Shown: piece by piece, positions 3,339 to 59,201 of the stretch | Numbering within the stretch: position 1 is the stretch's first letter | How the letters are laid out: the number at the start of each line of letters is the position of its first letter | From: Coriobacteriia bacterium | Lineage (GTDB): Bacteria; Actinomycetota; Coriobacteriia; Anaerosomatales; Anaerosomataceae | DNA: 64,000 bases | Reading direction: 5' to 3' | Assembly (NCBI GenBank): GCA_030652115.1 | Contig: JAUSBK010000007.1 | Location: 124,001-188,000 of the forward strand | Made by a program: the position numbers and the translations under genes | Notes under the pieces: generated by a model | The model's database searches: none | Told to the model about the DNA's origin: nothing | What the model saw: only the letters and a program-made list of their open reading frames with translations

Positions 3339-5324
3339 ATGTCTGACGAGAGCCGGGCCAGTATCGAGCACATGAGCGGGGACGACGAGGTGGTGGAGCC
3401 GCCTCAATCGTTCTCCGAGATGGCCGTCATCCCTGATCGGGAGACGTACCAGGAGATGTATCGGCAGTCGATCGACGACCCGGAGACTTTCTGGGGCGAT
3501 GCTGCACGCGCCGAACTCGAATGGATCAAGCCGTTTGAGACGGTGAGGAGCGGCGGGTTCGAGAACCTCGACTACAAGTGGTTCGAGGATGGGACCCTCA
3601 ACGTTTCGGCCAACTGCCTCGACCGGCACCTCGGCACGTGGCGGCGCAACAAGGCAGCGCTCATCTGGGAAGGCGACGACGGAAGCTCGCGGACCTTCAC
3701 CTACCAGCAGCTCCATCACATCGTCAGCCGTTTCGCGAACGTGCTCAAGAAGAAGGGGATCGAGCCCGGCGACCGGGTAGCGATCTACCTCCCGATGATT
3801 CCCGAGCTCCCGATGGCGATGCTTGCATGTGCGCGTATCGGCGCGATCCACTCGGTCGTCTTCGGTGGCTTCTCGGCAAGCGCGCTCCGGGAACGCATCC
3901 AGGACTGCGGGGCCAAGCTCCTGGTAACTGCCGATGAGGGCATCCGAGGCGGACGCAAGGTCGCCCTCAAGGTGGCGGCCGACGAGGCGCTCTTCGAGTG
4001 CCCGAGCGTCGAGGCGTGCATCGTGGTCAAGCGCGGTAGCGGCGACGTGGACATGGAGCCGGGTCGTGACACGTGGTGGCACCAGGAGGTCACGGCGCCC
4101 GAGGTGCGCAAGCCGTGCCCACCCGAGCCGATGGGCGCCGAGGATCCGCTCTTCGTGTTGTACACGTCGGGCTCCACCGGCAAGCCCAAGGGCGTGCTGC
4201 ACACGACGGCTGGCTACCTGCTGTACACCGCGATGAGCTTCAAGACGGTCATGGACTATCGCGATGAGGACGTGTACTGGTGCACCGCCGATATCGGCTG
4301 GGTGACCGGCCACAGCTACATCGTGTACGGCCCGCTTGCCGCCGGAGCCACGTCGCTCATGTTCGAGGGCGTTCCCACGTACCCGGACCCTGCGCGGTTC
4401 TGGGCCGTCATCGAGAAGTACCGCGTGAACACGTTCTACACCGCGCCCACGGCGATCCGCGCGCTCATGCGTCATGGCGCCGGCTGGCCGCAGCGCTACG
4501 ACCTCTCCTCGATCCGGCTTCTCGGCACGGTGGGCGAGCCCATCAACCCCGAGGTCTGGATGTGGTACCACGACACCATCGGCCGGGGCGAGGTGCCGAT
4601 CGTGGACACCTACTGGCAGACGGAGACTGGCGGCTTTCTCATCACGCCGTTCCCCGGCGCAACGCGGCTCAAGCCCGGCTCGGCGTCGTGGCCGTTCTTC
4701 GGCGTTGTGGCCGAAGTGGTCCGCGAGGACGGCAGCCGTGCCGAGCCCGGTGACGGCGGATACCTCACCGTCAAGGAGCCCTGGCCGGGAATCCTGCGCG
4801 GGACCTGGGGAGATCCTGATCACAGCCGCATGCGCGAGGTGTACTTCGAGCGTTTCCCCGGTCGCTACTTCACCGGTGACGGGGCACGCGTGGACGCCGA
4901 CGGCGACTTCTGGCTGCTCGGCCGCGTGGACGACGTCATCAACGTAAGCGGGCACCGCATGGGCACCGCCGAGATCGAGAGCGCGCTCGTGAGCCATGAT
5001 GCCGTCTCGGAGGCCGCCGTTGTCGGCTTCCCGCATCCGGTGAAGGGCGAGGGCATCCACGCCTACGTGGTGTTGCGCGATGGCCAGTTGGCCTCGGACG
5101 ATCTCGCCACGATCCTGAAGGGGCATGTCCGCAAGATGATCGGTCCGATCGCGCAGCCGGACCGCATCCAGTTTGCGCGCGATCTGCCGAAGACCCGCAG
5201 CGCCAAGATCATGCGCCGCATCCTGCGAAAGATCGCCGCCGGGGAGACCGAAATGGAGGCGTTCGGCGACCTCACCACGCTCGCCGACCCGAAGGTCGTG
5301 AAGGACCTGCTCGCCGGGGTGTAG
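3339..5324 (+). CDS. acs: acetyl-CoA synthetase (AMP-forming)
   Basis: Converts acetate, ATP and CoA to acetyl-CoA via acetyl-AMP. The 661 residues contain the ACS N-terminal domain ([17 protein letters not shown]), the phosphate loop [11 protein letters not shown] (about residue 273), the adenylate motif YWQTETGG, the hinge/GH region [17 protein letters not shown], and the C-terminal [11 protein letters not shown]. The lysine of that last motif is the one controlled by acetylation in characterised Acs enzymes. The ATG at 3339 is chosen over an upstream in-frame GTG (3309) because GAGGGGG sits five bases before it. The next gene starts 11 bases after the stop. Confidence 0.95.
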
Positions 5325-48461: not shown

Positions 48462-48547
48462 GTCCGAGTGGCGGAATGGCAGACGCGCTAGGTTGAGGGC
48501 CTAGTGTCCGCAAGGACGTGCGAGTTCAACTCTCGCCTCGGACACCA
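48462..48547 (+). tRNA. tRNA-Leu (anticodon GAG)
   Basis: An 86-base class II tRNA. The acceptor GTCCGAG pairs with CTCGGAC, then the A73 discriminator and an encoded CCA. The anticodon stem CTAGG/CCTAG encloses TTGAGGG with GAG at 48495-48497. A long variable arm (GTGTCCGCAAGGACGT) and T-arm GCGAG-TTCAACT-CTCGC follow. A TATACT hexamer (48426-48431) is its likely -10. It is the left landmark of the accessory island. Confidence 0.96.
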
Positions 48548-48551
48548 GCAA

Positions 48552-48627
48552 TGACCAGCGGCTTCTCCCGAAGGGGAGGGGCCGCTGTTGCTGTGTCGGG
48601 GGCGGCGTCTAATGTAACGTCTAATGT
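48552..48627 (+). repeat. tRNA 3' flank: terminator hairpin plus paired 10-mers (repeat A, arm-type sites)
   Basis: A 13-pair stem (48557-48569 with 48574-48586) just after the tRNA is its probable terminator. At 48606-48615 and 48618-48627 the 10-mer CGTCTAATGT occurs twice, separated by AA. The same 54-base block followed by a different N10-AA-N10 pair is found at 52388-52463. Paired 10-base direct repeats beside a tRNA resemble integrase arm-type binding sites (inference). Confidence 0.7.
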
Positions 48628-48750: not shown

Positions 48751-49593
48751 ATGGGCGAGCGCTATGACTCTTACGGGTACGACCGAGATGGCTATGGCCC
48801 AGACGGTTACAACTCTCACGGCTACGACCGCGATGGCTTTGGCCCCAACGGTCGAGACTCCGAAGACTACGATCGCAATGGGTACGACTGGGAGGGCTAC
48901 AACCGGGAGGGCTACAACCGCAAGGGCTACAACCGCAAGGGCTACGACCGCGATGGTTACGACAATGAGGACTATGACGCCGAGGGCTACGATCGTCGCG
49001 GCTTCGACCGTGAGGGCAAACACGCTGAAACGGCAACGCCCTATGACCCAGATGGCTATGACCGTAACGGCTATGACATCAATGGCTTTGATGAGTTCGA
49101 CAACGACGAAGAGGGATTCGATCCTGACGGCTTCGATCAGGCGGGATACGACGCCGAGGGATTCGACCAGCTAGGTTTCGATCGTCAGGGCATCAACAAG
49201 GAGACAGGGAGTCCGTTCGACAGATGGGGACTCGACCGTCAAAGGATGGATCGTGGCGGCTACAACCAAGAAGGGTGGGACGCGCGAGGATTCAATCGGC
49301 AGGGAGTGCATAGACTGACTTCGACAGATCGCGACCCAGAGGGCTACGATCGCCACGGGCTGGACGAGTCTGGCAACGACCGCGAGGGCTATGATCGCGA
49401 TGGCTACGACTCGGACGGGCTGGACCGAGGCGGCTTCGACAAGACGGGGTTCAACACCCAAGCAATCCACAGGGATACTGGGACCTTGTGGGACACTGGC
49501 GGTCGCGATCGCGACGGCTACGACGCAAAGGGCCTAGACCGCGATGGCTACGATCGACGCGGCTTTGATGTGAACGGCCAAACGCGGAACTAG
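48751..49593 (+). CDS. acidic GYDxx pentapeptide-repeat protein, function unknown
   Basis: A 280-residue soluble protein built almost wholly from 5-residue units of the form G-[YF]-[DN]-x-x (for example GYDRD, GFDPD, GYNRE), more than thirty of them. Four 13-residue spacers of similar design interrupt the array (GKHAETATPYDPD, GINKETGSPFDRW, GVHRLTSTDRDPE, AIHRDTGTLWDTG), making blocks of about five to fifteen units. There is no signal peptide, membrane helix or cysteine. ATG with GGGGTGA upstream. I know of no function for this repeat; it is unrelated to RTX or classic A(D/N)LxX pentapeptides. Confidence 0.8.
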   Translation: MGERYDSYGYDRDGYGPDGYNSHGYDRDGFGPNGRDSEDYDRNGYDWEGYNREGYNRKGYNRKGYDRDGYDNEDYDAEGYDRRGFDREGKHAETATPYDPDGYDRNGYDINGFDEFDNDEEGFDPDGFDQAGYDAEGFDQLGFDRQGINKETGSPFDRWGLDRQRMDRGGYNQEGWDARGFNRQGVHRLTSTDRDPEGYDRHGLDESGNDREGYDRDGYDSDGLDRGGFDKTGFNTQAIHRDTGTLWDTGGRDRDGYDAKGLDRDGYDRRGFDVNGQTRN

Positions 49594-49739
49594 ACGGGCA
49601 AAGCCCTCAGAACGGCACTCGCAATGCGAGCGCTCGTTGGTCTACCAACTGAGCATGGCCGCCGTTTCACGGTGGTTATACGGTGGACGGACGTAAGGGA
49701 TCTCCTCACAAGAAATGAGTGCATTGCCGTGCCTGTGAC
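49594..49739 (+). repeat. non-coding repeat B (first copy)
   Basis: This gene-free stretch after the pentapeptide gene matches 52257-52375 in ordered blocks: GGGCAAAGCCCTC-GAAC-GCACTCGC, then CGGTGGT..ACGGTGG, then AGGGAT-C-ACAAGAAATG and GCCGTGCC. Within it, a hairpin (GCTC..TTGGT-CT-ACCAA..GAGC, about 49632-49654) is specific to this copy. I see no gene between 49594 and 49834. Confidence 0.65.
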
Positions 49740-49834: not shown

Positions 49835-50383
49835 ATGACCGACAAGATCAGAGCTCGTCTCTCCTTTCTGCTGTATGCATCGATGTTTGTCCTACCGGGT
49901 GCGAGTCTCGCCATCGGCTGGATTGGCTGGGGCTTTCGGACAGGCGTTGTCGCCGCACTCATTACATTCGTGATCTGCTTTCTCCTGGCGGGAGTTCTCC
50001 TGGCGACAGTCAAGGACCTATCTTGGATTGCCGTCGGGTTGCCTTTCGCCCTTGGCATGACGTACGCCGCCCTGCCCAACTTCATTCCAACTCCGTTTGA
50101 CAACACCGCAATGGCGACTGCGGGTGCCCTGATGACATTTGGCCTGTGGGTTAGAAAGCAGCCGGATACTCCCAAGTGGATAGTCTTCCCACTGCTAGTT
50201 TCTGCTCTCTACACACTGGTGGGTGGTTTCATCGCCGGTCCCGTGGACGAGCTGATAGTTGGTGCTATCAGCTTCTACACATCCCGCCATGTTGCCGCGA
50301 AACAACTACCGCCCAGCAGTGAACCTCAGGCAATAGACGCTGATGAGTACATAGCGGCAGAGTATGTCGCTCAGGAGGACTAA
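49835..50383 (+). CDS. island membrane protein, function unknown
   Basis: A 182-residue protein with about five membrane helices (residues 9-30, 35-60, 65-82, 87-105 and 117-140) and an acidic cytoplasmic tail (about 150-182). ATG with GGAGCT upstream. It lies 91 bases before the DUF262 gene; whether it belongs to that module is not clear. No family recognised. Confidence 0.65.
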   Translation: MTDKIRARLSFLLYASMFVLPGASLAIGWIGWGFRTGVVAALITFVICFLLAGVLLATVKDLSWIAVGLPFALGMTYAALPNFIPTPFDNTAMATAGALMTFGLWVRKQPDTPKWIVFPLLVSALYTLVGGFIAGPVDELIVGAISFYTSRHVAAKQLPPSSEPQAIDADEYIAAEYVAQED

Positions 50384-50474
50384 AGAGTCGGAAGCGCCGG
50401 ACGTTAGAGCGAGCACAGCAGTATGGGTTAGAGTTGTGCAGTCAGCATCTGGGGGACTGGAGGGAGATCCACGT

Positions 50475-51557
50475 ATGGTAGACGCGGTTGACGACACCGA
50501 GCTCGAAGTAGAGGTCGAGGAGGAAGAGGAAGCGCCCGCGCAGACCTACGATATCGCGACGTATCCTTCGGACTTCACACTCAAGGGCATCGCACAGATG
50601 TGGGACGACGAAGAGATCACGATTCCCGATTACCAAAGGGAGTTCGTCTGGACCATACAGCAGTCCTCACTGCTGATTGACTCATTCTTGAGCGGTCTGC
50701 CGGTTCCCCCGGTCTTCTTCTACATCGACGACCAGAATCGCAACCTCGTGATTGACGGGCAGCAGCGCATCATGAGCGTGATCTTCTATCTCAGCGGCTA
50801 CTTCGGCCAAGAGGATGCTCGGGGCAAGCGCCAGACCTTCAGGCTGAAGGGGTTGTCTGACAAGGCACCTTGGGCGAACAAGAAGTTCACTGAGCTGGGC
50901 GACGTTGACCAGCGTCGGCTTCGCGGTGCCGTGCTTCGAGCCGTCAACATCAGGCAGCTCAAACCAATCGACGGCGACACGAGTGCGTATCACATCTTCG
51001 AGCGGCTCAACACCGGCGGGACGCCGCTCAAGAGCCAGGAGATTCGAAACGTCGTCTTTCGCGGCGATTTCAATAACATGCTCAAGCAGTTCAACCTTGA
51101 CCCGAACTGGCGTCTAGTCATTGGAAAGGCGGTCAAGGACAAGCACCAGAAGGACGTCGAGCTTCTCTTGCGCGTCTTCTCCCTGGTTGAGGATATCGAT
51201 GGATATGAGAAGCCGCTCGTACGCTTCCTCAACATGGCGATGCGACAGAACCAGAACGGTGATACCCCCAAAGTCGCGCGCTTCTTCGATCGCTTCTCGC
51301 TCGTCACCGACATGGTTGCGGGTGAGTTGGGACAGAAGCCGTTCCATCTACGTGGCAAGCTGAACGTGTCCGCGCTCGATGCTGTTCTCAGCGTCTTGAT
51401 TGAGTACTACGACGATGTTGATCGGTCGAAGCTGGCGGACTGCTGGGAGTCGTTGAAGGGCGACACTGCATTCGACGAAGCGACGCGCTACAACACGACC
51501 GACACTGCGACGGTGCAGACTCGGGTCGCCCTGGTTCGCAAGTACCTATTGAGCTGA
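50475..51557 (+). CDS. DUF262 (GmrS/ParB-like) protein
   Basis: A 360-residue protein with an acidic start (residues 8-20), then the DUF262 domain: IPDYQREFVWTIQQSSLLIDSFL, PPVFFYIDD, and the ParB-like NTPase/nuclease motif DGQQR at 94-98; FERLNTGGTPLKSQEIRN follows. DUF262 is the nucleotide-dependent half of the GmrSD type IV restriction enzymes and of several uncharacterised defence pairs. The ATG at 50475 has GGAGGGAG upstream. The HEPN gene follows after five bases. There is no C-terminal DUF1524 HNH domain, so the partner may supply the nuclease. Confidence 0.88.
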   Translation: MVDAVDDTELEVEVEEEEEAPAQTYDIATYPSDFTLKGIAQMWDDEEITIPDYQREFVWTIQQSSLLIDSFLSGLPVPPVFFYIDDQNRNLVIDGQQRIMSVIFYLSGYFGQEDARGKRQTFRLKGLSDKAPWANKKFTELGDVDQRRLRGAVLRAVNIRQLKPIDGDTSAYHIFERLNTGGTPLKSQEIRNVVFRGDFNNMLKQFNLDPNWRLVIGKAVKDKHQKDVELLLRVFSLVEDIDGYEKPLVRFLNMAMRQNQNGDTPKVARFFDRFSLVTDMVAGELGQKPFHLRGKLNVSALDAVLSVLIEYYDDVDRSKLADCWESLKGDTAFDEATRYNTTDTATVQTRVALVRKYLLS

Positions 51558-51562
51558 CGCGG

Positions 51563-52069
51563 ATGTCGTACGAAGCGCACTTCGAGCATGCGGATGACGT
51601 TATGGCGCACCTTGCTGTCATCGTCCCTGAAATCCCGGATGCTGTCCTCCAGGCCAAGTACTCAGGCTTCGCTGCAGTTGCGGCTGTGACCGTATACGAG
51701 ATTGCCCTCAAGGACATCCTGTTTGAGTTTGCGGAGTCGCAGCATCCCTTGCTGGGGGTCTTTACACACAGCCAGTGGGATCGAATCAACGGACGAATCA
51801 GGCTCTGTCACATTAAGGACGACTACTTGGCGAGTTTCGGGGGCGACTATGTGGTCTGTTTCAGGGACGCTCTGGATGCCGCCACGACGAAGTACCTCGT
51901 CGAGCATGGCAGTGACATTGTCACCTCATACTCGAACCTCATTCTGTGGCGTCATGACTTCGTTCACCAGGCCAGGGTGTCTGCATCGGCAACGTTTGAG
52001 GACGTCAGGAAGTCCTACGAGGCTGGCAAGCGAGTTCTGGCGTGCGTTCACGAGGCACTGTACGCGTAG
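51563..52069 (+). CDS. HEPN-domain putative ribonuclease paired with DUF262
   Basis: A 168-residue, all-alpha protein with the HEPN catalytic motif R-x4-H: RHDFVH, Arg130 to His135. It resembles the MAE_28990/RiboL-PSP type HEPN proteins that are often neighbours of DUF262 genes (recalled association). HEPN proteins are usually RNases acting in toxin-antitoxin or abortive infection systems. It starts five bases after the DUF262 stop, and an attC-like site begins nine bases after its own stop. Confidence 0.8.
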   Translation: MSYEAHFEHADDVMAHLAVIVPEIPDAVLQAKYSGFAAVAAVTVYEIALKDILFEFAESQHPLLGVFTHSQWDRINGRIRLCHIKDDYLASFGGDYVVCFRDALDAATTKYLVEHGSDIVTSYSNLILWRHDFVHQARVSASATFEDVRKSYEAGKRVLACVHEALYA

Positions 52070-52077
52070 AATCGCTG

Positions 52078-52137
52078 CTCCAACAAACGGATCAACCTGA
52101 CGCGCTTCGCTCGCAGGTTATCCGTCAGGCGTTAGGC
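52078..52137 (+). repeat. integron attC (59-base element)-like recombination site
   Basis: The right end holds a perfect R' core GTTAGGC (52131-52137); the left holds a degenerate partner CTCCAAC (52078-52084). Between them ACGGAT-c-AACCTG (87-99 of 52000) pairs exactly with CAGGTT-ATCCGT (114-125), leaving one extrahelical C at 52093, and GCG/CGC pairs near the tip. A hairpin with an unpaired base between R'' and R' is the hallmark of attC. It directly follows the HEPN stop, as attC does in a gene cassette. Confidence 0.75.
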
Positions 52138-52550: not shown

Positions 52551-53372
52551 ATGATTTGGGACTTGATGGACGAACTTGAAGGGGTTGTCGACAGTGAGTT
52601 CAAAGATCCGGTAGAAGTGGTCGACGTTGGGACATTCCCAGACGTGGACCAACTGGCGCTGGAGGTGCGTCGGTGGCAACGCCTGAAGGACCTCTACTGT
52701 GTGTCCGTCGACCTGAGAAACTCGACCGCTCTTGATGTGGGTGCTCACGCAAGCACAAGCGCCAGCCTGTACGAGGCCGTCACGGGGAGCTGCGCGAAGA
52801 TCGTGAAGCGACTCAACCCTCAGTTCGTCGACATACAAGGGGATGGCCTGTTCGCGCTCTTCCACGGGGCTATGGCGGTCGAGCGGGCGATCTGCGCGGC
52901 CATCTCACTGAAGACATTTGGCGAGAGAGTGCTGGAACCCATGATAGAGAAGCATCGGGCGGAGAAGCTTGGCGAGCGGTTCCCACAAACCGGCCTGAAG
53001 ATAGGCGTGGCATCCGGCACTACGGTCGTCAAGCGCGTTGGCGTCAGAACCATAAACGAACCGGTGTGGGCGGGACGAGCTGTACCGTACGCGGTCAAGG
53101 CGAGCGAAACATGCGAGCCGAAGCAGCTGTTGGTCACGCAGGCGGTTCACAACAGGATCGCTGGCAACGAGTACCTTACGTGGTCGTGCGGATGCGACGG
53201 CGCCGGGAACACGAATCAGCCCAAGAGGCTTTGGGCAGAGGCCGCCGAGATGCCGGGAGTTCCCGGAATGATGCTGTGGAGTCTCGGCACTACGTGGTGT
53301 CGTGTGCATGGCGACGCCTTCTATGACGCTGTGCTTGCTGGGAGTATTCGCAGAGACGACATCAGGGGGTAG
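52551..53372 (+). CDS. pycC: Pycsar-like nucleotide cyclase (class III cyclase domain)
   Basis: A 273-residue protein with a class III adenylate/guanylate cyclase fold: the first metal-binding Asp in VSVDLRNST (Asp54), the second in DIQGDGLFALF (Asp98), and later LKIGVASGTTVVKRVG. No membrane helix or receptor domain, unlike signalling cyclases. With the downstream membrane effector this is the two-gene layout of Pycsar anti-phage systems, where the cyclase makes cCMP or cUMP on infection. Which pyrimidine is made cannot be read here. ATG with GAGGAG upstream. Confidence 0.82.
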   Translation: MIWDLMDELEGVVDSEFKDPVEVVDVGTFPDVDQLALEVRRWQRLKDLYCVSVDLRNSTALDVGAHASTSASLYEAVTGSCAKIVKRLNPQFVDIQGDGLFALFHGAMAVERAICAAISLKTFGERVLEPMIEKHRAEKLGERFPQTGLKIGVASGTTVVKRVGVRTINEPVWAGRAVPYAVKASETCEPKQLLVTQAVHNRIAGNEYLTWSCGCDGAGNTNQPKRLWAEAAEMPGVPGMMLWSLGTTWCRVHGDAFYDAVLAGSIRRDDIRG

Positions 53373-53376
53373 TGGA

Positions 53377-53889
53377 ATGGCTGTAGCGGAGGGGTGGTCC
53401 GACGGGTGCACTAGCCTGGCACAGACACTGCTCGGCGAGAGTCGCCGAGAGCTGGAGCGGGCGGATGCCAAGGCGATAGGGCTTCTCAGTTTCTGCGGTC
53501 TACTCGTTGGTGTGGTTGTGGCGGGAATGATTGCCGGTGAGTGGAGCCCTTCACACCTCGGCGAGACGCAACGCCTGGTTTGGTGGGCGGGGGCGGGGAT
53601 GATAGTTGCCGCCTTCACGCTGTTCGGTTCAGCGGTATGGCCCAGAACGAAGAAGAGCCAGTTCGCACAGAACCGCGAGTGCGTCACGTACTTCGGCGAT
53701 GTGGAAGCGACCTGGAACCTGCGCCATTTGGGCGAAGTGCTCGAACGGACGTGCACCTGTCTTCCTGACCGCGACGGCGAGCAACTGCTGACCATCGCCA
53801 AGTACGCGAGACTGAAGTACTCACTGATCAGGTGGGGAATGGCGCTATATGGGCTCGGTGCACTGGCAGCGACTGCAGCAGCGCTCTAG
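53377..53889 (+). CDS. Pycsar-like transmembrane effector (PycTM, DUF5706-like)
   Basis: A 170-residue protein. The N-terminal helix (LLGESRRELERADAKAIGLLSFC) matches the ADxKA start of Pycsar TM effectors (recalled). Three membrane helices follow (about 33-52, 66-88 and 150-169), with a cytoplasmic domain between the last two. On cyclic nucleotide binding, such effectors are thought to disrupt the membrane and stop phage growth. The ATG at 53377 lies four bases after the cyclase stop with GGGGGT upstream. Confidence 0.8.
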   Translation: MAVAEGWSDGCTSLAQTLLGESRRELERADAKAIGLLSFCGLLVGVVVAGMIAGEWSPSHLGETQRLVWWAGAGMIVAAFTLFGSAVWPRTKKSQFAQNRECVTYFGDVEATWNLRHLGEVLERTCTCLPDRDGEQLLTIAKYARLKYSLIRWGMALYGLGALAATAAAL

Positions 53890-54157: not shown

Positions 54158-54246
54158 ACGTGCGTCTTCAGACGGCTGTGTCGTGTGCCTGCGGTACGAT
54201 GGCAAGAGCGACACGCGATCGGTTCATTCTGAGGGGGGTCCTATTC

Positions 54247-56523
54247 TTGCCGCGACTCACTGAGCAGGAACAGCAGGAGATCATCCGCTTCCTTGAGGCT
54301 GACAAGCCGCTGCCCGACAAGTACCGGTTCCTGCTGTTCGGTGACAAGCGCGAGGTCGAACTCGTGTGGAATGGCAAGACCAACGAGGTCTGCAATATCA
54401 TTCTGCCCTTTCAGACGATCGAACAGGTAGATGAGCCACGGGCGGAAACCGCCGATGACACGGCGTTGCAGCTGGACTTGTTCTCGCTCGATGAACGCGG
54501 AAGACAGCTTCGGGGTTGGACCAACAAGCTGATCTGGGGGGACAACAAGTTGGTCCTGTCGTCGCTGAAGAACGGACCTCTGAGGGAGGAAATCGAGGAG
54601 CAGGGTGGTCTGAAGCTGGTCTACATTGACCCGCCATTTGATGTCGGGGCGGACTTCTCAATGGACATCGAGATCGGTGACGACACCTTCACCAAGAGGC
54701 CGAACATCCTGGAAGAGATCGCGTATCGGGATACGTGGGGCCAGGGTGCCGACTCGTTCATTGCGATGCTTTACGAACGACTCGTGCTGATCCGAGACCT
54801 CATGTCGTCTGATGGCGGCATCTACGTTCACATGGGCAGGAATGTGTCCCACCTTATTCGACTGGTCTGTGACGAGGTGTTCGGTCGAGAGAATCTGGTC
54901 AACGAGATTACGTGGCAGAGAGCGCACGCCCACGGTGACACAGGTCAAGGAGCAGCTCACTTCGGTCGCGTTACTGAAGCCATCCTCTATTACACGAAGA
55001 GCGACAAGCCCACATGGAATCCTCAGTACACGGCTTACTCGGACGCCATCATCTCCCGCGACTACAAGTACGTGGATGAGGCGACGGGTGAGCGGTACAG
55101 GCTCATGCCGGTGGACGGACCAGGCGGTGCATCGAAGGGCAATCCCTATTACTCGTTCCTCGGTGTGAAGGGCTACTGGAGGTACTCGGAGTCGACGATG
55201 CAAGCACTGTACGAGTCTGGCGAGATCTTGCTGTCCTCAACAGGACGATCGCTCAGTCGGAAGCGCTTTCTGAAGGACGCCAAGGGTACTCCCGTAACGG
55301 ATCTCTGGGATGACGTGAACCGCATCAGCCCAACCTCCAGCGAACGCCTAGGATACGATACGCAGAAGCCAGAGGCACTACTGTCGCGAATCATCGAGGC
55401 ATCGTCGAACGTCGGCGATCTGGTGGCGGACTTCTTCTGTGGTTCGGGCACGACGGCTGCTGTCGCGGAGAAGCTTGGCCGAAAGTGGATGGCTGCCGAT
55501 CTCGGCAAGTTCGCCATTCACACAACCCGCAAGCGGATGATCGCTGTTCAGCGCGAGATGAAAGCGGCAGGTAAGGACTACCGTGCCTTCGAACTTCTGA
55601 ACCTCGGGAAGTACGAACGCCAGCACTATGTGGGCGTCAATTCTGACCTGCGTGAGGAGCAGAAGCAGCAGCAGCTGGCCGCCAGGGAGCGAGCATTCCT
55701 CGACCTCATCCTTCGTGCCTACAGGGCGGAGGGCGTTGAGGGCTTCGAGACTATCAGCGGCAAGAAGGCTGGCCGACTCGTTGTGGTCGGTCCGATCAAC
55801 ATGCCAGTGACTCGCCTTTTCGTGGAAGAGGTCATTCTTGAGTGCAGGAAGCAGCACATCACCAAAGTGGACGTTCTTGGGTTCGAGTTTGAGATGGGGC
55901 TTTTCCCGAACATCCTGGACGAAGCACGAGGCAAGGGCATCGACATTTCTCCCAAGCAGATTCCTCGGGAAGTGTTCGACAAGCGGGCCGTCGATAAGAA
56001 TCAGGTCGTCTTCCATGATGTGGCCTACATCGAGGTGAAACCTCACATGAAGAGCGACTCCGTTGCAGTGGAGCTAACGGACTACTCAGTCTTCTACTCA
56101 CAGGATTCGATCGCATCGGCTGAGGAATCGCTCAAGAAGAAGGGCGACAAGGTCGTCGTCGAGCGAGGGCAGATCGTCAAGGTCAGCATGGATGAGCATG
56201 GAGTCGTCAGTCGCGAGGTGCTTACGAAGAAGTGGACGGATTGGGTCGACTACTGGGCCGTGGACTTCAACTTCGAGAGCAAGCGCGAGTTGATCCGGGT
56301 GAAGAACGAGGACACGGGTGAGTGGGAGGAGCGCTGGACTGGCGACTACATCTTCGAGAACGAGTGGCAGTCGTTCAGGACCAGGAAGGACCGGGAGCTT
56401 GAACTGAAGAGTGTGGCCCATGAGTGCACACCTGGTCGTCGCAAGATCGCAGTCAAGGTCGTCGACATCTTCGGCAACGACACAATGACCATCGTCGAGG
56501 TCAACGTAGGGGGGAAGGACTGA
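54247..56523 (+). CDS. type III restriction-modification methyltransferase (Mod)
   Basis: A 758-residue beta-class N6-adenine methyltransferase. The order is catalytic DPPFD (motif IV, about residue 129) then AdoMet-binding FFCGSGTTAAVAEKLGRKW (motif I, about 397), which defines the beta class. Between them lies a large target-recognition region. The start is TTG 54247, where GAGGGGGGT lies upstream and family homology begins (PRLTEQEQQEIIRFLEADK). It sets the recognition sequence for the Res subunit and protects host DNA. The stop overlaps the res ATG. Confidence 0.9.
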   Translation: MPRLTEQEQQEIIRFLEADKPLPDKYRFLLFGDKREVELVWNGKTNEVCNIILPFQTIEQVDEPRAETADDTALQLDLFSLDERGRQLRGWTNKLIWGDNKLVLSSLKNGPLREEIEEQGGLKLVYIDPPFDVGADFSMDIEIGDDTFTKRPNILEEIAYRDTWGQGADSFIAMLYERLVLIRDLMSSDGGIYVHMGRNVSHLIRLVCDEVFGRENLVNEITWQRAHAHGDTGQGAAHFGRVTEAILYYTKSDKPTWNPQYTAYSDAIISRDYKYVDEATGERYRLMPVDGPGGASKGNPYYSFLGVKGYWRYSESTMQALYESGEILLSSTGRSLSRKRFLKDAKGTPVTDLWDDVNRISPTSSERLGYDTQKPEALLSRIIEASSNVGDLVADFFCGSGTTAAVAEKLGRKWMAADLGKFAIHTTRKRMIAVQREMKAAGKDYRAFELLNLGKYERQHYVGVNSDLREEQKQQQLAARERAFLDLILRAYRAEGVEGFETISGKKAGRLVVVGPINMPVTRLFVEEVILECRKQHITKVDVLGFEFEMGLFPNILDEARGKGIDISPKQIPREVFDKRAVDKNQVVFHDVAYIEVKPHMKSDSVAVELTDYSVFYSQDSIASAEESLKKKGDKVVVERGQIVKVSMDEHGVVSREVLTKKWTDWVDYWAVDFNFESKRELIRVKNEDTGEWEERWTGDYIFENEWQSFRTRKDRELELKSVAHECTPGRRKIAVKVVDIFGNDTMTIVEVNVGGKD

Positions 56524-59201
56524 TGGCGCTACATCCCGACTTTCCGCAGTCGCCGTACTCAGTTCTCAACCCTGAGATTCGTTGGTTCCCGGCTGATGAA
56601 GCTATGCGCGCCACCACTATGGACAAGTTGATGCCGCCGTTGGTCTCGCAGCTCAGACGGAAGGTCAAGGAGTTCAGAGACAGCGGCTATGTTGGAGCCG
56701 CAAACACGAGCAAGAGCTTGCTCGAATGGTGGTTCAAGACTCCGCACCTTGTTCCACAGGCGGACGGCACAACAGGCGAGTTTCAGTACTACTTCGCTCA
56801 GCGCGAGGCACTGGAGACGATCATCTACCTGCACGACGTCGTCGGCGTGAAGGACAAGTATGACCTCATGCGTTTCGACAGCAGCGGGCAGGTCTCGGCA
56901 GGCATGTTCGATGAGGACTGGCGGCGTTTCGTCATCAAGATGGCCACTGGCAGTGGCAAGACGAAAGTGCTTGCGTTGGCTCTGGCGTGGAGTTACTTCC
57001 ACAAGTTATACGAGCCTGAATCGGGCCTATCCAGGAACTTCCTAGTCATCACGCCCAACATCATCGTGCTGGACCGTGTTCGTCGTGACTTCGAGGGCTT
57101 GAGGATATTCTTCAGCGATCCAATAGTCCCGGACGACGGATACGAAGGCCAGGATTGGCGCAGTGACTTTCAGCTGGACTTTCACCTACAGGATCAGGTT
57201 AAGGTCACTCACCCCACAGGCAACATCTTCCTAACGAACATCCATCGTGTCTATTCGGGCGACGATATCGCCGCGACTCCGGATGACGACGACATGATGG
57301 AGTACTTCCTGGGCAAGCGCCCGGTCGGTGGTACGACTGACTCCAAAGTGGACTTGGGGATGATAGTTCGTGACATCGACGAGCTGATGATTCTGAACGA
57401 CGAGGCGCACCATATTCATGACGCCCGTCTAGCATGGTTCAAGTCCATACAGGACATTCGCAATCGCTTGCTTCAGAAGGGCGGGGAGCTGTCTCTGCAG
57501 ATTGATGTGACGGCAACTCCCAAGCACAACAATGGTGGGATCTTCGTGCAGACGATTGCCGACTATCCACTGGTGGAGGCGATTTCGCAGAACGTCGTGA
57601 AGCATCCGGTACTTCCCGATGCAGCGAGTCGGGCCAGGCTGGTGGAACAGCAGAGCGCCAAGTTCACTGAGAAGTACGCTGACTACATCCACCTTGGAGT
57701 AGTCGAATGGCGCAAGGCGTTCGAGGAGCACGAGAAGATGGGCAAGAAGGCCATCTTGTTCGTGATGACGGATGACACCCGCAATTGTGACGACGTCAAG
57801 GAGTACCTGGAGGGTACGTATCCAGATTTGAAGGGTGCCGTCCTGATCATTCACACGAAGGAGAACGGCGAGATATCCGAGTCAGCGACCGGCAAGAACA
57901 AAGACGAGCTTGAGAGGTTGCGCGAACAGGCCAACAGCATCGATCAGCCCGATAGCGAGTGGAAGGCGATCGTCTCTGTCCTGATGCTCAAAGAGGGGTG
58001 GGATGTACGGAACGTGACCACGATCGTTGGTCTTCGTGCCTATTCCGCCAAGAGCAACATCCTGCCTGAGCAGACCCTTGGGCGCGGACTTCGGAAGATG
58101 TACGCAGGCGGTGTCGAGGAGTACGTGAGTGTTGTCGGCACTGACGCCTTCATGGAGTTCGTAGAGTCGATCCAACAGGAGGGTGTTGTGCTGGAGCGTC
58201 GTCCTATGGGCGAGCAGTCCGGTCCGAACACACCGATCGCAATCGAGGTGGACCACGAGAACGTGCACAAGGACCTCGACAAGCTGGACATAGAGATCCC
58301 GGTTCTCACACCGCGTGTCTTCCGCGAGTACAAGAACCTCGCTGATCTGGATGTCGACCGTTTGTCCCACCAGGTCGTGGCATACAAGGCGTTCACGGAT
58401 GAAGAGCAGCGGGAGATTGTCTTCAAAGACATCACTACTGGCGAGATCACGCACACCACCTACCTGGACACAGCGGGCATTGCTGACTACCGCAGCGTCA
58501 TCGGCTACTTCGCCCGGACCATCATGAAGGACCTTCGGCTGGTGTCTGGATACGACGTCCTATACGGCAAGGTCAAGGCATTCGTGGAGACCAAGCTGTT
58601 CGGTCGTTCTGTCGACATGGAAGACCCGAACACGTTGCGGAACTTGGCTGAGTTGGCCGCAACTCGCACCGCCATCGAGACATTCAAGAAGGCAGTGAAC
58701 GAGCTGACGATTCTGGATCGTGGCGACGCGGAGATTCGGGACACGATCAAGTTGAGGCAGACGAGACCCTTCATGGCGAAGGAGCAGGGGTACGTCGTGC
58801 CGAGGAAGAGCGTGTTCAATCGGATCATCGGCGACAGCAACCTTGAGCTGCGGTTTGCTCAGTTCCTAGAGGAGTGTCCGGACGTTGTGTCGTATGCGAA
58901 GAACTACTTCGCAGTTCATTTCAAGCTCGACTATGTCAACGCCGACGGCAACATCTCCGACTACTACCCTGACTTTGTCGTGCGAGAGACGAGCGGCGAC
59001 TATGTCGTCGTCGAGACCAAGGGCCTTGAGGATATGGACGTGCCGCTGAAGATGCAGCGCCTGAAGCTCTGGTGCCAGGATGTGAACGCTGTTCAAGAAG
59101 TGCAGAGATTCGACTTCGTCTACGTTGATGAAGATGGCTTCAACAAGTATCGTCCTACAACATTCTCCAGCCTCAGAACAGGCTTCACGGAGTACAAGTA
59201 G
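56523..59201 (+). CDS. type III restriction enzyme, Res subunit
   Basis: An 892-residue SF2 helicase-nuclease: Walker A MATGSGKT (about 140), motif II LNDEAHH (about 291), motif VI QTLGRGLRKM (about 517), and a C-terminal PD-(D/E)xK nuclease with SDYYPDFVVRETSGDYVVVETKG (about 815). All key residues are present. It needs two Mod-bound sites in opposite orientation to cut in known type III systems. The ATG shares one base with the mod stop; the open frame extending upstream is a shadow of mod. Confidence 0.93.
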   Translation: MALHPDFPQSPYSVLNPEIRWFPADEAMRATTMDKLMPPLVSQLRRKVKEFRDSGYVGAANTSKSLLEWWFKTPHLVPQADGTTGEFQYYFAQREALETIIYLHDVVGVKDKYDLMRFDSSGQVSAGMFDEDWRRFVIKMATGSGKTKVLALALAWSYFHKLYEPESGLSRNFLVITPNIIVLDRVRRDFEGLRIFFSDPIVPDDGYEGQDWRSDFQLDFHLQDQVKVTHPTGNIFLTNIHRVYSGDDIAATPDDDDMMEYFLGKRPVGGTTDSKVDLGMIVRDIDELMILNDEAHHIHDARLAWFKSIQDIRNRLLQKGGELSLQIDVTATPKHNNGGIFVQTIADYPLVEAISQNVVKHPVLPDAASRARLVEQQSAKFTEKYADYIHLGVVEWRKAFEEHEKMGKKAILFVMTDDTRNCDDVKEYLEGTYPDLKGAVLIIHTKENGEISESATGKNKDELERLREQANSIDQPDSEWKAIVSVLMLKEGWDVRNVTTIVGLRAYSAKSNILPEQTLGRGLRKMYAGGVEEYVSVVGTDAFMEFVESIQQEGVVLERRPMGEQSGPNTPIAIEVDHENVHKDLDKLDIEIPVLTPRVFREYKNLADLDVDRLSHQVVAYKAFTDEEQREIVFKDITTGEITHTTYLDTAGIADYRSVIGYFARTIMKDLRLVSGYDVLYGKVKAFVETKLFGRSVDMEDPNTLRNLAELAATRTAIETFKKAVNELTILDRGDAEIRDTIKLRQTRPFMAKEQGYVVPRKSVFNRIIGDSNLELRFAQFLEECPDVVSYAKNYFAVHFKLDYVNADGNISDYYPDFVVRETSGDYVVVETKGLEDMDVPLKMQRLKLWCQDVNAVQEVQRFDFVYVDEDGFNKYRPTTFSSLRTGFTEYK

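Follow-up and report, generated by a model that had tools for sequence, protein, structure and literature searches.

A DUF262–HEPN gene pair, apparently a diverged relative of PD-T4-2, carried on an integron cassette in a tRNA-Leu defence island of a Coriobacteriia bacterium

A DUF262 gene and a HEPN gene of a Coriobacteriia bacterium lie, together with an attC recombination site, in a complete integron gene cassette inside a tRNA-Leu defence island (Table 1). They were studied in a 64 kb stretch of contig C7, called the window here, to which all positions refer unless a contig is named. The pair is best read as a PD-T4-2-like module on a single cassette that was stranded in the island as a fragment of an array, in which the DUF262 protein would serve as the sensor and the HEPN protein as the RNase; this joint statement is assigned a probability of roughly 0.72.

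Table 1. Features of the cassette and its surroundings, in window positions (a slash marks the crossover point)
Feature	Position	Strand	Evidence
tRNA-Leu(GAG), island attachment site	48462–48547	+	ARAGORN, Rfam
3' end of truncated upstream attC, long (~86 nt) array type, AGTCGGAAGCGCCGGACG/TTAGAG	50386–50409	+	weight matrix
Complete integron gene cassette, 1728 bp, crossover G/TT to G/TT, both genes and attC	50404–52131	+	R''-to-start rule, attC-end junction
DUF262 / GmrSD_N protein, 360 aa	50475–51557	+	Pfam PF03235 (GmrSD_N), 94.5 bits
HEPN protein (RiboL-PSP-HEPN family), 168 aa	51563–52069	+	Pfam PF18735, 37.8 bits (cut-off 28.4)
attC recombination site, 60 nt, bottom strand folds	52078–52137	+	fold, covariation, covariance model
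Pycsar cyclase PycC, directly downstream of cassette	52551–53372	+	PADLOC PycC, 222 bits
Pycsar effector PycTM, open frame	53302–53889	+	Pfam PF18967, 47.8 bits; PADLOC PycTM
Type III restriction-modification: methyltransferase, then helicase/nuclease subunit	54226–59201	+	Pfam N6_N4_Mtase; PADLOC MTase_III 325 bits, REase_III 80 bits

The attC site, the cassette borders and the island

The attC at 52078–52137 is real, as the original prediction had claimed. It begins 8 bases past the stop of the HEPN gene, and its bottom strand has the canonical shape, with a paired R box, an unpaired spacer, an L stem and a small loop. Two extrahelical bases, a G and a T, are present where the prediction had counted one. 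The bottom-strand fold reaches z = -3.4, with 1 of 200 shuffles folding as well. A pattern search turned up one more site in the host's own genome, and a dozen others, 56–60 nt long and of the same architecture, came from relatives; a covariance model was built from the resulting 14 attC sites of the host's order. The window site scores 76.2 bits (E about 1e-24) against this model, a value that is partly circular because the site is itself a training row, which does not hold for the covariation. No other match was found in the window. In the 14-row alignment, 93% of cells are paired in the named structure, compared with 19–41% when it is slid, and changes on both sides affect nine pairs (40 cells), including the outer L pair, which reads G-C, U-A or A-U. 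Short attCs were also considered as a mark of lone defence cassettes, an idea rejected because short and long types mix in arrays.

The 5' end of a cassette mirrors the R'' box of its own attC. Here R'' (CTCCAAC) predicts the start GTTGGAG, and GTTAGAG stands at 50403, matching at 6 of 7 positions. Most array cassettes of the own genome and one congener match at 6–7 of 7, and the same G/A difference recurs among them (GTTGGCC with GTTAGCC, GTTGGGC with GTTAGGC, GTTGGAA with GTTAGAA). On the right, the R' box of the cassette's attC is completed by the flanking TTAGGC, the usual cassette start. A weight matrix derived from the terminal 24 bases at the 3' side of 27 array attCs (own genome and congener) gives 21.9 bits at 50386–50409, the highest value on both strands of the 64 kb; the next is 16.6 bits, and the maxima in ten shuffles were 10.8–20.2. 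The R'' rule and the attC-end matrix are largely separate signals that coincide at one junction: they share the seven R' bases GTTAGAG, but the 17 bases left of these contribute most of the matrix score. Because both meet there, the cassette is drawn from 50404 to 52131, its left edge abutting the remaining 3' end of a truncated attC of the array type. The idea of an attC-bearing gene cassette thereby stands, with its predicted extent corrected on the left to 50404.

A complete upstream attC at 50340–50412 was rejected, as this segment forms no hairpin and the covariance model also detects no full site. A second GTTAGAG, at 50427, lacks the attC-like left flank seen at the cassette border. Counted from the cassette border, the leader ahead of the DUF262 start (50475) is 71 nt long; an alternative start at 50364 is unlikely because it crosses this border. 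A search around the cassette gave no sigma-70-like promoter.

Pycsar and type III restriction-modification genes accompany the cassette in the tRNA-Leu defence island. The 3' part of the tRNA-Leu (48492–48603) is repeated at C7:192755–192866 (84%), next to a tyrosine integrase (C7:191482–192579), and this repeat with its neighbouring integrase outlines an island of about 20 kb. The true start of PycTM probably lies downstream of that of the open frame, at about 53377. Neither an empty island nor an empty cassette site was found in relatives. Just past the tRNA, 48751–49593 encodes a 280-aa protein of short repeats (DRDGYDxxG type) with no Pfam match, and a tRNA-like fragment that ARAGORN does not call lies on the minus strand at 49620–49690.

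Integrons in the host genome and its order

The window's site does not stand alone: the host genome (2.38 Mb, 14 contigs) contains about 15 matches to the covariance model. Among the plasmid-borne copies of the limited collection compared, its partial 16S is nearest to Actinomycetota (Streptomyces 85.7%, Arthrobacter 84%), so the host is probably of an actinomycete-like lineage. Arrays of attC sites occupy C9 (78–93.4 kb, where the contig ends), C2 (starting at base 143, the very beginning of the contig) and C10 (78–87 kb), and lone sites occur on C7 (the window's site) and at C2:48361. A match on C14 was treated as false on account of its wrong R boxes. The same genome holds a second lone cassette of about 2.7 kb (C2:45701–48423), with an 857-aa DEAD/ResIII helicase and an attC. 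Its R''-to-start match is exact (7/7), and it was perhaps inserted directly, since no attC remnant was found on its left side.

Of the host's order, 69 genomes were scanned: 48 have an integron integrase at E <= 1e-50, and in 46 the match passes the TIGR02249 cut-off. All four congeners have the enzyme; it was found neither in 30 genomes from the other orders within the class nor in 14 control genomes. In the own assembly nothing passes that cut-off, the cassette has no intI or attI beside it, and an integrase-neighbour gene of one congener is likewise missing. This absence probably reflects an assembly gap, with loss as a possible alternative. The lack of an integrase in the window means little, because the attC arrays run off contig ends and integrases occur so widely in the order. 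The cassette resembles the CALIN and SALIN elements (attC without integrase) in having one complete attC and no adjacent integrase, but differs in being flanked by a truncated second attC and in having full arrays elsewhere in the genome.

The two proteins and their relatives

The original prediction had proposed two genes at these positions, with Arg130 and His135 as an R-x4-H motif, and a DUF262 protein without DUF1524 paired with a HEPN protein of complete active-site motif; Pfam matches and homologue alignments bear out both proposals. Pfam detects only GmrSD_N in the first protein and HEPN in the second, and the DUF1524 nuclease domain is absent from both. The DUF262 protein carries the ParB/Srx-type NTPase motif IDGQQR, and in homologue alignments D94-G95-x-Q97-R98 (DGxQR) and many further residues are invariant. 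Its best solved match is BrxU, by sequence and by model, followed in the model comparison by Noc/ParB.

The HEPN gene follows after 5 bases, and its motif reads W-R130-HDFV-H135, R130 and H135 being residues of the catalytic type. In an alignment of 11 pairs at 10–49% identity (window, congener, two E. coli plasmids, Hymenobacter, Exiguobacterium, Kocuria, Acinetobacter, Rhodococcus, Bradyrhizobium and an Akkermansia phage), M1, E46, R130 and H135 are the sole invariant residues, and the same four are invariant in a second alignment of 37 sequences. The AlphaFold model of this protein (pLDDT 93) appears nearest to HepT-type HEPN toxins and Csm6. All 12 top VIA-align matches are to HEPN toxins, HEPN-family proteins or Csm6, with HepT-type toxins best (rmsd 3.6–4.5, 117–127 aligned), and the likeness is only suggestive because the Z values of 6.5–7.9 are under 8 for a helical protein. 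A Foldseek search of the model against solved structures gave no significant match (E above 0.9), and a viral-contig scan with the HEPN protein found no relatives.

Among the closest known systems is PD-T4-2 from E. coli ECOR65 (Vassallo et al. 2022), which consists of DUF262 and a PF18735 HEPN protein. PD-T4-2 defends E. coli against T4, and its deletion from native ECOR65 restores T4 plaquing; the mechanism remains open (PMC9519451, PMC10952713). The window pair shares the order of DUF262 followed by a PF18735-type HEPN protein and the lack of DUF1524, but it is carried as an integron cassette in a distant phylum and is known here from sequence. Among PADLOC profiles, NsnA scores the DUF262 protein higher (194 bits) than PD-T4-2_A does (158.8 bits, E 5e-47), and PD-T4-2_B does not match the HEPN protein up to E = 1; by these scores, the pair would be a diverged relative of PD-T4-2, not PD-T4-2 itself. 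The original prediction had called the pair, as a system, not mechanistically described as far as known; given the PD-T4-2_A and NsnA matches, the kind of system is a described one, although the mechanism of PD-T4-2 does remain open. In GmrSD, BrxU and SspE, the DUF262 domain gates a nuclease and is itself able to bind and hydrolyse NTPs (PMC10952713). The window pair has the DUF262 NTPase domain with IDGQQR in common with these type IV restriction systems; in contrast to them it is without DUF1524, and the nuclease role would presumably fall to a separately encoded HEPN protein, with RNA as the expected target.

An alignment query of genome contigs retrieved 80 DUF262 relatives from species genomes, where a query with the single DUF262 sequence had given none. 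A HEPN gene directly follows DUF262 in 77 of the 80, and two of the other three end at a contig edge. R-x4-H is found in 74 of the 77 HEPN neighbours (one of these, L134, looks frame-shifted), with Lys in place of Arg in three. Two relatives are themselves cassette-borne, both in genomes with integron integrases. In a Deltaproteobacteria MAG (L150), an attC at 1778–1847 begins 16 bases past the HEPN stop; its R'' (GCCGAAC) predicts GTTCGGC, and the cassette start at 64 reads exactly this (7/7), following an attC tail. Two further attCs are present there, and the next two cassettes obey the rule at 7/7. In Halomonas sp. NO4 (L106), an attC at 3400–3477 begins 2 bases past the HEPN stop, and another follows the next gene. 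Only these two, with their array context, were retained, because a generic hairpin scan for attC after the 77 HEPN genes did no better in sense (9/77) than in antisense (9/74). Their attCs are unlike the window's, so the three captures of the pair were probably separate events. All three observations that the original prediction had named as refuting it thus failed to appear: the site matches an attC model, homologous pairs with an attC exist, and the HEPN motif is conserved. The closest copy, in a congener (G004:C224, L074; 64% and 49% identity), has a tyrosine integrase as its neighbour, and the covariance model detects no attC there, so the cassette form is not obligatory. With cassette copies on one side and this attC-less copy on the other, the pair is a mobile defence module for which integrons are one vehicle among several.

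Alternative explanations, proposed mechanism and significance

The original prediction had left open whether the cassette entered at a secondary site or is the relic of an array. A single circle inserted by an integron integrase at a non-integron (attG-type) target, never having been an array member at this locus, would have entered a site reading GCGCCGGACG/TTAGGCGCGG. Cassette insertion outside integrons is documented (Loot et al. 2024, as cited in PMC12690207), the window's attC is the only one that the covariance model finds there, and the helicase cassette on C2 offers a lone example with an exact border and no left remnant. Against such an insertion, GGAAGCGCCGGACG/TTAG on the left differs very little from the 3' ends of array attCs, such as TGAAGCGCCGGACG/TTAG on C2, and TTAGGC on the right is the usual cassette start, so both flanks point to array neighbours. 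A single insertion is accordingly considered rather unlikely; since the left junction consists of the tail of a truncated attC of the array type, a relic array is a better fit than clean entry at a secondary site. Far less probable still is an attC that arose by chance or has decayed, the pair being merely adjacent and owing its mobility to the tRNA island alone. The own assembly without integrase and the congener's attC-less pair beside a tyrosine integrase would fit this; the strong covariation in the 14-row alignment, the 6/7 border with an attC remnant at exactly that junction, and the cassette-borne pairs of the Deltaproteobacteria MAG and Halomonas speak against it.

A different question is whether the pair senses phages at all. 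It could be a toxin–antitoxin pair, kept for the stability of the cassette or island, with a HEPN toxin and a DUF262 protein that is a mere antitoxin. The tight coupling of the two genes, the HEPN toxin fold suggested by the model, and the occurrence of the pair on plasmids and integrase islands are consistent with this. The invariant DGxQR and other DUF262 residues exceed what a plain neutraliser needs, and the TA-like systems listed by Vassallo et al. do not include PD-T4-2; the toxin–antitoxin explanation is judged improbable.

Under the preferred reading of a PD-T4-2-like module stranded from an array, we infer sensing, RNA cleavage, defence in the host and present mobility along the following lines. 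The DUF262 protein would bind NTPs, sense a cue of infection, which may be modified phage DNA, and hold or position the HEPN protein. On sensing, the HEPN protein would be released to cut RNA through R130 and H135, and the phage or the cell would be stopped. The integron integrase of the host lineage would recognise the folded bottom strand of attC and could thereby mobilise the cassette, for which the tRNA island may provide a second transfer route. At its present locus, the array fragment would comprise a single intact cassette, with a truncated attC on its left and an R' half-site on its right.

The PD-T4-2 kind of system, the storage of anti-phage cassettes in integrons and the insertion of cassettes outside integrons are already known. 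Anti-phage integron cassettes have been reported from mobile integrons and from the chromosomal arrays of Vibrio (Darracq 2025; Kieffer 2025, both as summarised in PMC12409362); as far as that summary describes them, the window's cassette is similar in being a small defence system with an attC and differs in being stranded in a tRNA island of a Coriobacteriia host. As far as the literature searched shows, the exact cassette borders of a DUF262–HEPN pair, its cassette form in three lineages and the widespread integrons of the host's order are new. The IntegronFinder 2.0 survey recorded no complete integron in Actinobacteria (PMC9024848), in contrast to the richness of this order in integron integrases. 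The finding ties a verified but mechanistically open defence system to a mobility unit with base-level borders, and E46, R130 and H135 of the HEPN protein, together with the NTPase motif of DUF262, make its mechanism directly testable. The same pair is packaged as a cassette in unrelated hosts. At somewhat less than even odds, and thus tentatively, DUF262–HEPN may be a defence module that integrons have repeatedly taken up as a cassette, in separate events in three lineages or more; in the host's actinomycete-like order, where chromosomal integrons would be near-universal, cassettes may escape from arrays into integrase islands, so that the integron would feed defence islands.
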